Virus record (IMG/VR): IMGVR_UViG_3300042879_002433
Coordinates: 1-24,831 of that record
Reading direction: 5' to 3' (one strand)
DNA length: 24,831 nucleotides
DNA from: a virus
The notes beneath the pieces were generated by a model. The model was given only the letters and a program-made list of their open reading frames with translations. It was not told the DNA's origin and searched no databases. Position 1 is the first letter of the stretch. Every line of letters starts with the position of its first letter. Of this stretch, positions 3,002-8,122 are shown piece after piece. The position numbers and the translations under genes were made by a program.

Positions 3002-3027
3002 GCCCGCCGGCCCTGGTGCCGGCGGGC
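3002..3027 (-). other. Post-stop GC hairpin, copy 1
   Basis: A perfect 10-bp stem GCCCGCCGGC/GCCGGCGGGC with a 6-base loop begins about ten bases past the stop of 3038-3352, with no T-run. The same design occurs at 7681-7705 and 7086-7121. After it comes a conserved leader element (CCACGAGAC, AAGGGAACGAA) leading into the next ATG. It may stabilise RNA or tune expression between the two genes. Confidence 0.7.
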
Positions 3028-3037
3028 GGGGTGTTGG

Positions 3038-3352
3038 TCAGAGGCTCGTGAACAATCCGGTCGCGTCGCAGAAGTCAGCCTGGAGCGTGTCGCAGTAGAC
3101 GTTCTCGCTCGTGGCGATGACGGTGTACTTGGTGCCCCAGAGGCGACCGTACTCGACCGTGTAGGTATCGCTCGGGGTGAGCCGCACCGTGACCATGTTG
3201 ATGCCGTCCTTGATCCAGCCCGCCTTGGCGGGCAGCTTGAACCGAACGCCCGACTCAATCGCGGCGAAGCACTTGGCTCCGGTCATCGCGGCGAACCGAC
3301 CGCCACCGAGTTGATCGAGGATCGTGTTTGCGACTTGCATGTTGTTGGTCAT
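3038..3352 (-). CDS. Conserved small phage/plasmid hypothetical protein
   Basis: 104 aa, ATG 3352 behind AAGGGAG. The pattern ILDQLGGGRFAAMTGAK near residue 11, a middle with SGVRFKLP and INMVTVRLTPSDTYTVEY, and the ending CDATGLFTSL resemble a widespread family of short accessory proteins on phages and plasmids (typically LGG.RF..MTGAK ... TLTP.DTY.VEF ... TGLYTSL). The family has no role I can name with confidence. It is the first gene after the promoter at 3409-3437, whose leader can form a hairpin (3379-3399). Confidence 0.75.
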   Translation of the reverse strand: MTNNMQVANTILDQLGGGRFAAMTGAKCFAAIESGVRFKLPAKAGWIKDGINMVTVRLTPSDTYTVEYGRLWGTKYTVIATSENVYCDTLQADFCDATGLFTSL

Positions 3353-3378
3353 CGTCCGGTCTCCCTTGCGTCGTGTCC

Positions 3379-3399
3379 CGCGAGTCCCATTCGCTCGCG
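3379..3399 (-). promoter_or_regulatory. 5' leader hairpin, copy A
   Basis: In the transcript, CGCGAG (3399-3394) pairs with CTCGCG (3384-3379) around a 9-base loop. The stem begins 10 bases after the -10. The same stem at the same offset occurs at 7982-8002 as CGCGGG/CCCGCG, so one A-T pair has become G-C. That compensatory change supports a real RNA structure. Confidence 0.6.
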
Positions 3400-3408
3400 T
3401 CTGGTGGT

Positions 3409-3437
3409 ACTATAGGCTATCGGTATTTGGGTTGCAA
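3409..3437 (-). promoter_or_regulatory. Sigma70-like promoter
   Basis: On the minus strand TTGCAA (3437-3432) and TATAGT (3414-3409) are 17 bases apart. The -10 lies 57 bases from ATG 3352. Upstream is a run of C residues and an A/T tract (AAAAAAATCTTTTC) that resembles an UP element. The same C-run and AATCTTT core are found upstream of the promoters near 7000 and 8020. Confidence 0.75.
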
Positions 3438-3484
3438 GGGGGTGAGAAAAGATTTTTTTGGGGGCGTTTTTCGCGGGGAAAACG

Positions 3485-3754
3485 CTACTTCCGCCGCCGG
3501 GCCGCCTTTTTCCGCTTGGCGGCGGGCCGCTTGGCGAGGTGCTTCTTGCCCGTCGCCCTGGTCGTGAGGGTGTCGCGGACGTGGGCGGCGGATCGCTTCG
3601 CCACCAGCCGCAGCCGTTTGCCCATCATCCGGCTTTCGAGCTTGCCCTCGCGGCAGAGAACCCGCACCCAGCCATCGGTGCAGCCGATGAACTCGACCGC
3701 TTCCGAGACCGTGAGGTAATCCACGCCGTCGATGTTGTACGCCATGCTGACCAT
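3485..3754 (-). CDS. Helix-turn-helix protein with lysine-rich tail (excisionase/repressor-like)
   Basis: 89 aa from ATG 3754, or 86 aa from ATG 3745. Residues 13-55 (YLTVSEAVEFIGCTDGWVRV ... GKLESRMMGKRLRL) match the HTH_17/MerR-like winged helix of excisionases and small phage regulators. The last 30 residues are strongly basic (KKHLAKRPAAKRKKAARRRK), which is unusual for this group and suggests non-specific DNA binding. It is divergent from the integrase. The promoter -10 ends only seven bases before ATG 3754, so the message may be leaderless; no ribosome binding site is visible at either ATG. It may control integrase or act as a directionality factor (inference). Confidence 0.72.
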   Translation of the reverse strand: MVSMAYNIDGVDYLTVSEAVEFIGCTDGWVRVLCREGKLESRMMGKRLRLVAKRSAAHVRDTLTTRATGKKHLAKRPAAKRKKAARRRK

Positions 3755-3760
3755 GCCCAA

Positions 3761-3788
3761 ATGGTACGTAGAAATAGTTGGGAGTCAA
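3761..3788 (-). promoter_or_regulatory. Promoter of the divergent HTH gene
   Basis: On the minus strand TTGACT (3788-3783) and TACCAT (3766-3761) have a 16-base spacer. The expected transcription start is at or next to ATG 3754, implying a leaderless message like that of lambda cI from PRM. Confidence 0.5.
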
Positions 3789-3956: not shown

Positions 3957-4895
3957 ATGGAACCGATCACGCTGGCAGAGCTTTTTGAGCGGTACGGAGA
4001 CCTGCGGAATCTCGACGCCAAGACGATGCAGCTCTACGTCATGCTGCTCGACCGCCTGCGTGCGTTCTTGGGGCACGAGCCCACCACGGCCGACCTCGAC
4101 GATCTGACGATCTCGCGGTATCTCAGGCACCGAGCGACGCACCTCTATCGCGGGCAGCCGATCCGGCCCGCTAGCGTCCAGAAGGATAAGGTCATGCTCC
4201 AGGCGGTCTGGAACCTCGCCGCCCGAAAGCGATGGGTCGCCGAGTTCCCCGAGCTCCCCCGCATCAAAGTCGCCAAGAGCATCCCGACCGGGCGGGCCTA
4301 CACCGCCGAGGACGTTGCCACGCTCATCCGACGGGCTCGCCGCCGGATCGGCACGACAGGGGGACAGCCCTCGGCATGGTGGTGGAGCACGCTCATCTAC
4401 ATGGCTTACTGCACGGGCGAGCGGGCGACCGCCCTTCTCAGCCTGCGGTGGGGCGAACTCGACACTGCCCGCCGCCGGGTCATTTTCCTGGGCGCGACCC
4501 GGAAGGGATCGACCCGCGACATCGAACGAGACTTCACCGCCGACCTAGCCAAGTTCCTCGAAGCCCGCCGCCGCCGCCCCGAGGATCTCGTCTGGCCGTG
4601 GGATCGCCACCGGGGAAGCCTCTGGACGAGCCTCAAACTGCTCTGCCGGCTGGCAGGGGTGAAGTACCGGGGCTTCCATGGGCTGCGGCGTACACGGGCT
4701 TCCTACGCAGCCCTGGCGGGCGGTACGGCTGCCGCCACCCAGGTACTCGATCATTCCGACCCCAGGCTCCAAGAGCGGTACGTAGACCCCCAGATATGCC
4801 CCAGTGAGCAGAGCGGGGTCGAGGTCATGCCGCCGCTGTGCTTGGACGAGCCTGCCGCGGGGCAGGAAGACCGGCCCGACGAGCCGGAGGCGTGA
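3957..4895 (+). CDS. int: Tyrosine recombinase (phage integrase)
   Basis: 312 aa. ATG 3957 follows GAGGGAG. Residues 1-105 form the helical SAM-like core-binding domain (TLAELFERYGDL ... LDDLTISRYLRHRATHLYRG). The catalytic domain follows from about 112. The catalytic set is visible: Arg156 (CTGERATALLSLRW), Lys183 (ATRKG), His241 and Arg244 (HGLRRTR), His266 (LDHSD) and nucleophile Tyr275 (QERYVDP). The protein is acidic and proline-rich after the active site (residues 290-312). It should integrate and, with an excisionase, excise the phage genome. There is no separate arm-binding N-terminal domain of the lambda kind. It is the main rightward gene in an otherwise leftward region. Confidence 0.93.
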   Translation: MEPITLAELFERYGDLRNLDAKTMQLYVMLLDRLRAFLGHEPTTADLDDLTISRYLRHRATHLYRGQPIRPASVQKDKVMLQAVWNLAARKRWVAEFPELPRIKVAKSIPTGRAYTAEDVATLIRRARRRIGTTGGQPSAWWWSTLIYMAYCTGERATALLSLRWGELDTARRRVIFLGATRKGSTRDIERDFTADLAKFLEARRRRPEDLVWPWDRHRGSLWTSLKLLCRLAGVKYRGFHGLRRTRASYAALAGGTAAATQVLDHSDPRLQERYVDPQICPSEQSGVEVMPPLCLDEPAAGQEDRPDEPEA

Positions 4896-6614: not shown

Positions 6615-6950
6615 TCAGAGCCACCGCTCGCCGTTGTTGTATCGGTCGCAGAGTTCTTGAGCTTGCTGGCGGGTGTAGCCAAGGTAGGAAAGGGCGGTGT
6701 CGTTCTGGTTGTTGACCGCCACGCCGTCGCGGGCAATCGTCGCGACGAGCCCGGCGAGCAGGCGGTAGATCGGCTTGCGACCTTCGGAGGCGACCCAGAC
6801 GTAGGGCTCGATCTCAACCTTGCCGCTACCCTTGGCAACCGTCCGCGTCATCTTCGTCAGCGTGGTGCTCGGCAGGAAGGTGCCGCCCGCGTAGTGCTCG
6901 CCGTTCTTCCCGATCTCGCCGCCCTGCTTGGCTCGCTTCTGGCTAGTCAT
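6615..6950 (-). CDS. Hypothetical protein, first gene after the 6993-7020 promoter
   Basis: 111 aa from ATG 6950, which sits six bases after AAGGGG. ATG 6956 and ATG 6986 are in frame; 6986 falls almost on the predicted transcription start and would be leaderless. The protein opens with basic TSQKRAKQGGEIGKN, has a central EIEPYVWVASEGRKPIYRLL segment and ends in YTRQQAQELCDRYNNGERWL. No family is recognised. The start choice is the least certain part. Confidence 0.62.
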   Translation of the reverse strand: MTSQKRAKQGGEIGKNGEHYAGGTFLPSTTLTKMTRTVAKGSGKVEIEPYVWVASEGRKPIYRLLAGLVATIARDGVAVNNQNDTALSYLGYTRQQAQELCDRYNNGERWL

Positions 6951-6992
6951 CGTCATCCCCTTCGCGTTGGTGTCGTTGCTCGTCATGCCCCC

Positions 6993-7020
6993 AGTATATC
7001 CGGTATCGGACATAGTGCAA
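6993..7020 (-). promoter_or_regulatory. Sigma70-like promoter with spacer palindrome, copy 1
   Basis: On the minus strand TTGCAC (7020-7015) and TATACT (6998-6993) have a 16-base spacer, TATGTCCGATACCGGA, identical to that at 8018-8033. ATGTCCG and CGGATAT form an 18-bp near-palindrome running from the spacer into the -10. Upstream are six C residues and an A/T tract with AATCTTTC, as in the other copy. A repressor or activator site is likely. Confidence 0.78.
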
Positions 7021-7085: not shown

Positions 7086-7121
7086 TCCCCGCCCGGCGGC
7101 GATGTTGCCGCCGGGCGGGGA
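7086..7121 (-). other. Post-stop GC hairpin, copy 2
   Basis: A 14-bp perfect GC stem (CCCCGCCCGGCGGC and its complement), extendable by one T-A pair, with a 6-base loop, begins four bases past the stop of 7125-7649. No T-run follows. It lies between that gene and the promoter at 6993-7020, so it may work as a transcription barrier or RNA stabiliser. Confidence 0.7.
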
Positions 7122-7680: not shown

Positions 7681-7705
7681 GCCCGGCGGCACCGTGCCGC
7701 CGGGC
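7681..7705 (-). other. Post-stop GC hairpin, copy 3
   Basis: GCCCGGCGGCAC and GTGCCGCCGGGC flank a single C, a 12-bp inverted repeat that begins 10 bases past the stop of 7716-7955. Compared with 3002-3027, a G-C pair in the stem is swapped for C-G, a compensatory change. The following leader to ATG 7649 matches the one before ATG 2971. Confidence 0.72.
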
Positions 7706-7715
7706 GGGGCTTGCC

Positions 7716-7955
7716 TCAGATCACCGTGACCTTGCGGCGGAAAATGCGGTGCAGATTGTCGAGAGCCAGCGAGTCGAACTCGCCGTTGAGCATCAGGCAG
7801 TCCCAACGAATGACAGCCGCGACGGTCTCCACCGTTGCAGCGACCGGGACAAACTCAGGAAGCCCGTAGCCGAACAGGATCTCAGTGTCGATGCCCGAGA
7901 GGTCAGCGTTGCTCTTGGCGATCTCGGCGGCGTTCTTGAACTCGGCGGCGGTCAT
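7716..7955 (-). CDS. Small hypothetical protein, first gene of the 8012-8039 unit
   Basis: 79 aa, ATG 7955 behind GGGAG. The N-terminal half is helical (MTAAEFKNAAEIAKSNADLS); the C-terminal half has a typical pattern, VAAVIRWDCLMLNGEFDSLA, then LDNLHRIFRRKVTVI, that I associate with short phage and plasmid proteins of unknown role. The leader has a structured element shared with the gene at 3038-3352. Function unknown. Confidence 0.66.
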   Translation of the reverse strand: MTAAEFKNAAEIAKSNADLSGIDTEILFGYGLPEFVPVAATVETVAAVIRWDCLMLNGEFDSLALDNLHRIFRRKVTVI

Positions 7956-7981
7956 TTTCGTGTCTCCCGTTCTTCGTGTCT

Positions 7982-8002
7982 CGCGGGTCTCACTTGCCCG
8001 CG
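7982..8002 (-). promoter_or_regulatory. 5' leader hairpin, copy B
   Basis: CGCGGG (8002-7997) pairs with CCCGCG (7987-7982) around a 9-base loop. It has the same offset from the -10 and the same loop length as 3379-3399, with one compensatory pair change. The two 56-base leaders align without gaps (about 38 identical positions by hand count). Confidence 0.6.
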
Positions 8003-8011
8003 TCTGCCCTA

Positions 8012-8039
8012 ACTATATCCGGTATCGGACATATGGCAA
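8012..8039 (-). promoter_or_regulatory. Sigma70-like promoter with spacer palindrome, copy 2
   Basis: On the minus strand TTGCCA (8039-8034) and TATAGT (8017-8012) have a 16-base spacer identical to that of the promoter at 6993-7020, including the ATGTCCG/CGGATAT near-palindrome. The -10 ends 57 bases before ATG 7955. An A/T tract and C-run lie upstream. Confidence 0.8.
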
Positions 8040-8122
8040 GGGGGGCTTGAAAAGATTTTCCGAAAACCGCGTTTTCCCCGAGGAAACCGGGGGTAGGTAC
8101 ATCCGGCGTACCCACCCGGCAC

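Follow-up and report, generated by a model that had tools for sequence, protein, structure and literature searches.

An apparently exchangeable promoter cassette with a predicted, covarying 5'-leader hairpin in front of unrelated small genes of tailed phages

Small hairpins with a conserved loop occur near the start of phage early transcripts in the antitermination RNAs of the lambda nut boxB and HK022 put type. T4-like phages possess promoter-early stem-loops (PeSLs; Arbiol 2010, Comeau 2014), described as composites of promoter and terminator (PMC4503421, PMC3950731). Cluster K mycobacteriophages carry SAS/ESAS elements, which are repeated before the start codons of some small genes, about half of them with an inverted repeat; the ESAS consists of 17-bp inverted repeats, in which the arms follow a conserved consensus while the spacer is variable (PMC3203893). 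Stem-loops at the 5' terminus are further known to stabilise mRNAs, as in the ompA, papA and aprE type (reviewed in PMC3997798). A single-stranded 5' end is required by both RppH and RNase E; stem-loops at the 5' terminus hinder RppH as well as the tethering of RNase E to that end, and the bla mRNA was stabilised by an added 5' hairpin (PMC3997798).

The stretch of DNA analysed here (24.8 kb, hereafter the window) is an IMG/VR virus record with structural genes of a tailed phage, including the capsid, and with small genes in its left part. No DNA match to the window was found among isolated phages, its major capsid and tape measure proteins are only distantly similar to those of other tailed phages, and the longest records related to it measure 41-49 kb. 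A search for the host in GTDB genomes, with a strict hairpin pattern and with a capsid-profile search whose peptide patterns were poor, gave no match. Two of the small genes stand behind promoter-leader units that run leftward from 8039 and 3437 and are composed as follows:

8061-8088, minus strand: upstream dyad region GGTTTCCTCGGGGAAAACGCGGTTTTC of the 8039 cassette, with a TTT(Y)-GC core-AAA dyad as in 41 of 53 cassettes
8048-8060, minus strand: A-tract or UP-like element GGAAAATCTTTTC of the 8039 cassette, kept in nearly all cassettes
8012-8039, minus strand: promoter TTGCCA-16-TATAGT, a real consensus match
8018-8029, minus strand: operator-like palindrome TCCGATACCGGA in the spacer of the 8039 promoter
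7982-8002, minus strand: 5'-leader RNA hairpin CGCGGG-CAAGTGAGA-CCCGCG, predicted from its fold, a covariance-model match of 54.7 bits and covariation over 37 leaders
7964-7968, minus strand: Shine-Dalgarno-like GGGAG (from sequence and fold), unpaired in the predicted fold
7716-7955, minus strand: 79-aa gene of unknown function behind the 8039 cassette, with orthologues in nine IMG/VR loci
3464-3485, minus strand: upstream dyad GCGTTTTCCCCGCGAAAAACGC of the 3437 cassette
3446-3459, minus strand: A-tract AAAAAAATCTTTTC of the 3437 cassette
3409-3437, minus strand: promoter TTGCAA-17-TATAGT, likewise a real consensus match
3415-3426, minus strand: operator-like ATACCGATAGCC in the 3437 promoter
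3379-3399, minus strand: 5'-leader RNA hairpin CGCGAG-CGAATGGGA-CTCGCG, predicted from a covariance-model match of 52.0 bits and covariation
3038-3352, minus strand: 104-aa gene behind the 3437 cassette, PHROG 9437 (unknown function; E 2.5e-26)

The 79-aa protein belongs to no Pfam family and has no significant PHROG match. Homologues of the 104-aa protein occur in 32 isolated-phage records, and relatives with 41-52% identity are found in phages of hosts as different as Rhizobium, Pseudomonas, Rhodobacter and Tunturiibacter. GC-rich inverted repeats lie at the ends of genes, just ahead of the next gene or promoter, at 3002-3031, 7087-7120 and 7684-7710; they have no U-tract and are possible processing or termination sites.

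Aligned without gaps, the two leaders (7956-8011 and 3353-3408, minus strand) are identical at 38 of 56 positions, as the original prediction had counted, against a maximum of 30 in 10,000 composition shuffles. Its coordinates for the two hairpins hold as well, each hairpin being the predicted minimum-energy fold of its leader and beginning 9 nt past the -10, and the change of an A-T to a G-C pair between the two stems was read correctly. In the hairpin at 7982-8002 an additional inner C-G pair can form, which reduces the loop to a hexaloop next to a bulged A. Relative to shuffled sequences, the fold attains a z-score of -2.4 for the 8039 leader and of only -0.8 for the 3437 leader, so that fold energy alone would not prove the hairpin.

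The RNA structure, for which the prediction had relied on one base pair, is backed by covariation among numerous relatives, which were collected by scanning IMG/VR both by gene and by pattern. Ten leaders were used to build a covariance model, which, when run on whole records, places real elements at 22 bits or more and the background at 15 bits or less. Further homologous leaders with the anticipated covariation do exist: over 37 distinct leaders 96.5% of the cells are paired, and five of the seven pairs are altered on both sides. Cells with both sides changed number 30 against 7.3 in shuffles, where these cells represent sequences and not independent events, many cassettes being close copies; none of 500 shuffles reaches the observed value, and slid controls lie far lower. 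The replacement of whole stems, including GTCAGG/CCTGAC and CGGCCG/CGGCCG, is independent of this problem of close copies. Indeed, the arms are variable, with lengths of 5-8 bp, a few G-U pairs and the variants CGCGAG, CGCGGG, CGCAAG, TGCGAG, GTCAGG, CGGCCG and the 8-bp GTCGCGAG.

Since the earlier search patterns had included portions of the hairpin, the helix was also put to three tests with less bias. When IMG/VR was scanned with a pattern blind to the stem, 30 distinct matches were returned, 26 having a stem of 5 bp or more and four having none. A search of related records for the promoter, blind to the hairpin and counting stems that start 6-14 nt after the -10, found a stem of at least 5 bp in 35 of 41 cases, against a mean of 1.2 and a maximum of 5 in shuffles; the other six promoters have no hairpin. 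Finally, an IMG/VR-wide scan that used only the A-tract and C-run ahead of the -35, and hence neither operator nor hairpin, yielded 38 places; the operator is present in 28 of them and the hairpin in at least 21, and the remaining places are mostly chance matches in unrelated sequence. The position of the hairpin over the relatives is 6-11 nt after the -10. Rfam 15 gave no match at the gathering threshold for the whole window and none up to E = 5 for 7940-8060. Judged from the sequences, the leader hairpin is a real covarying helix inside an exchangeable promoter cassette.

This cassette of about 140-180 bases, larger than the unit of the original prediction, comprises putative binding sites, the promoter and, where the message is predicted to begin, a small RNA hairpin. 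Its parts follow one another in the order upstream dyad, A-tract, C-run, -35, CCGAT box, -10, hairpin, unpaired ribosome site and ATG. The TTT-GC-AAA dyad of the 41 cassettes lies 28-32 nt before the -35 in 40 of them, with 0.06 expected in mononucleotide shuffles, a comparison in which related copies are not independent. As a terminator this dyad was rejected, because its T residues precede the core and its A residues follow it, which is the wrong geometry. The operator-like CCGAT box between -35 and -10 is present in loop-bearing elements and is often palindromic (e.g. CCGATCGG, CCGATATCGG). Most loops read C-RANUGA-G-A, with C11, U15, G16 and G18 invariant in the 37 leaders, and the conserved C and G are able to pair, giving a hexaloop with a bulged A. 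Since the hairpin-blind search also recovered stems with other loops (TGAGGAA, CAAGGAA, AACGG, ACGATGAGAG), the loop is preferred and not required, and its apparent conservation is partly a matter of ascertainment, because loop or promoter motifs were used in the searches.

The promoter occurs a third time in the window, here with a different leader:

6993-7020, minus strand: third promoter copy TTGCAC-16-TATACT, with the palindrome TCCGATACCGGA at 6999-7010 and a leader without hairpin
6615-6985, minus strand: 123-aa gene behind this hairpin-less cassette

Over 77 nt the 7020 and 8039 units share 77% identity, and a stem was looked for in the 7020 leader and not found; similar hairpin-less leaders occur in three further loci (G003, L006, L023). 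The distance of 57 bases from -10 to ATG, which the original prediction had regarded as fixed and as shared by an unrelated leader at 2086, stands in so far as 56 bases intervene in the 8039, 3437 and 2086 leaders, but it is not constant among relatives (50-58 nt, mode 57, one outlier of 69). Neither is the 2086 leader a family member: it is not homologous, and together with its orthologues it makes up a promoter class of its own, in which a GAGGGGGG...GCCCCCTC dyad covers the -10 and a conserved stem is absent. Since the distance varies and the 2086 leader is non-homologous, the spacing is no signature of the family, and its equality at 2086, in a leader of another promoter class, is a coincidence. 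The promoter in question (2141-2170, upstream of the gene at 1859-2086) reads TTGACC-16-TAGGAT with the strong dyad GAGGGGGG-TAGGATAC-GCCCCCTC over the -10, and both are kept before orthologues of this 75-aa gene in other phages. At 2226-2262 lies a tandem direct repeat TATGGTCTAGCGGTAG, which resembles the operator-like box in the HTH promoters of relatives (CTACCGCTAG) and is possibly a regulator or recombination site.

Some phages carry up to five cassettes, and about 20 unrelated families are represented among the downstream genes; the products are 53-163 aa long, and almost none has a known function. In the closest pairs of cassettes before unrelated genes, promoter and leader are 91-100% identical and the coding starts 26-43%; because the former are near-identical while the latter differ, genes appear to have been swapped at or near the start codon. 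The proposal of a dedicated cis-acting element for several small accessory genes is borne out, its RNA hairpin being backed by covariation, and the recurrence of the cassette before so many unrelated genes in a family of uncultured phages suggests a plug-and-play control unit. The hairpin-less copy at 7020, the palindrome in the promoter, the upstream dyad and this modular use had escaped the original prediction. LPD29, a domain known from phage polyvalent proteins, is present in one of the downstream families and was seen in the cargo of cassettes E16, E10, E20 and E12 (in G017, G018, G030 and G031, respectively), a hint of an early role in infection for some of the cargo. The loci L007, L008 and L009 encode proteins about 90% identical to that of 3038-3352, with completely different promoter and stem sequences; here the cassette seems to have been replaced independently of the gene that it precedes.

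A putative regulator is encoded next to the 3437 cassette, and the window also has an integrase gene:

3485-3754, minus strand: gene immediately ahead of the 3437 cassette, coding for an HTH_17 protein (HTH_17 match just below the cut-off) whose K/R-rich tail is conserved
3957-4895: tyrosine integrase

The K/R-rich tail is kept in most lineages. In all 14 records in which the HTH gene was found next to the integrase-side cassette it is directly upstream of the cassette; in G029 it is located elsewhere, not at the cassette, and no HTH gene of this family was found in G013, G014 and G025. The protein is a candidate for the regulator of the cassettes, and we treat this role as a hypothesis because the operator-like box is better than shuffles in seven of 12 HTH-gene promoters, yet was not found in the window's own. 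That promoter (TTGACT-16-TACCAT, within 3754-3788) leaves only about 6 nt before the ATG at 3754, so a leaderless transcript is predicted.

The sequences themselves show which parts the cassette has and that these keep a fixed order, that the helix covaries, and that identical cassettes stand before unrelated genes. The reading that we favour, and to which we give an even chance, is that of an exchangeable cassette which combines shared operator control with a 5'-terminal stem-loop protecting the mRNA. Different small accessory genes would be plugged in at its start codon, and all cassettes would be switched together at the operator by a regulator of the phage, for which the adjacent HTH protein is a plausible candidate. 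From the -10 we infer a transcription start about 7 nt downstream, which would leave 0-5 unpaired nt before the stem, and the hairpin would mainly shield the mRNA from decay that depends on the 5' end, so that a newly acquired gene would be expressed at once and its message would last. We prefer this combination of mRNA protection and operator control because of the 5'-terminal geometry, the free ribosome site and a stem that is more general than the loop; indeed, the stem is retained where the loop changes, as predicted for a protective hairpin. Against pure protection speaks the loop, C-RANUGAG-A, which is more conserved than a protective hairpin needs, and against the favoured mechanism as a whole the six of 41 promoters that lack the hairpin and the operator box missing from the HTH promoter of the window.

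This same loop, kept while stems were fully replaced (GTCAGG, CGGCCG, CGCAAG, TGCGAG) and invariant at C11, U15, G16 and G18, would be explained if the hairpin were the site of a phage RNA-binding protein, a translational regulator or an antitermination element of the lambda nut boxB or HK022 put kind, reading the C-RANUGA-G loop and the bulged A and controlling all cassette genes after transcription start. Loop preference and a linked basic-tailed protein, whose HTH gene is directly upstream of the cassette in most records, make such a protein-binding element a serious rival, which we consider possible though on the doubtful side, and the GC-rich inverted repeats between cassette genes could be the terminators to be overridden. 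However, alternative loops are tolerated, the basic tail is absent or weak in G011, G012 and G023 despite a canonical loop, the basic-tailed HTH protein was not found in G013 or G025, neither a boxA-like element nor an Rfam match was identified, and the intergenic repeats have no U-tract. Carried further, the idea would amount to a new phage RNA regulon, in which an RNA-binding protein, perhaps the adjacent basic-tailed HTH protein, recognises the C-RANUGA-G hairpin at the 5' end of every cassette transcript, so that, together with the operator, a shuffled pool of accessory genes would be under two-layer control; this we advance as a speculation, slightly less probable than the binding site itself.

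A dyad at the transcription start could also be an operator in the DNA and no RNA structure at all. Its location fits a repressor site, and symmetric changes would preserve a DNA dyad too, but the variable arms around a conserved asymmetric centre are the reverse of an operator, for which reason we disfavour this reading; with the 5' bulged A that replaces the 3' one in L012 and L014, and the few G-U pairs, it appears unlikely. Still less probable is that the NTG of the loop (ATG, GTG or TTG) starts a short leader peptide through which translation would be coupled to the main gene. In every element examined TG is preceded by A, G or T and never by C, and in many of them the frame would end at a TGA overlapping the main ATG; we nevertheless reject the peptide because indels of 1-2 nt between loop and ATG in orthologues (offsets of +33, +34 and +35 before the same 163-aa gene) show that the frame is not kept, and a ribosome site ahead of the loop is lacking. 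That the two leaders are ordinary recent duplications with an incidental hairpin is hardly credible: many cassettes are near-identical copies, but 35 of 41 promoters found blind to the hairpin have a stem where chance gives 1.2, complete stem replacements keep the pairing, and the covariation counts refute it.

If the favoured cassette mechanism applies, this phage family may put newly gained genes to immediate use by swapping coding sequences, at the start codon, into a standard control cassette. Promoter and hairpin could serve as a handle by which to search uncultured phages for accessory genes and for possible genes of host takeover, and the natural variants, with the hairpin present, absent, re-paired or changed in its loop, would allow the role of 5' hairpins in phage mRNA to be tested.

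By its way of working, the closest known kind of element is the PeSL of T4-like phages. Like the PeSLs as described, the cassette combines a promoter and a stem-loop, repeated in a plastic region before varied small genes and apparently shuffled between phages, and an early-type promoter repeated before unrelated small genes is indeed what the roughly 20 families present. The PeSL terminator stem-loop upstream of the promoter is not seen here, where the stem-loop lies 6-11 nt after the -10 without a T-run. Whereas PeSLs are described as composites with a terminator, the cassette has its conserved stem-loop downstream of the promoter, within the 5' leader; the stem covaries, the loop is kept and a U-tract is absent. 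The cassette also has an operator-like box inside the promoter and an upstream dyad. Nor is the phage itself T4-like, to go by its distant capsid and tape measure matches, related records of 41-49 kb and tyrosine integrase. Like SAS/ESAS, the cassette is a repeated element before the start codons of small genes, but its arms vary and its loop is conserved, the reverse of the ESAS, and the conserved 13-bp SAS GGGATAGGAGCCC is absent from the leaders listed in the searches. With the ompA, papA and aprE type it would share a small stem-loop a few nt from the 5' end, as predicted from the gap of 6-11 nt between -10 and stem, and a free ribosome site; it differs in being one hairpin family with a conserved loop before many genes, in which stabilisation would be the presumed effect. 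A small conserved-loop hairpin near the predicted transcript start is likewise reminiscent of nut and put, whereas the cassette has a single hairpin, no boxA or N-like protein was identified, and there is one element per short gene group and not per long operon. Mobile promoters are a known kind, to which the present phages add a covarying 5'-leader hairpin that is absent from Rfam.
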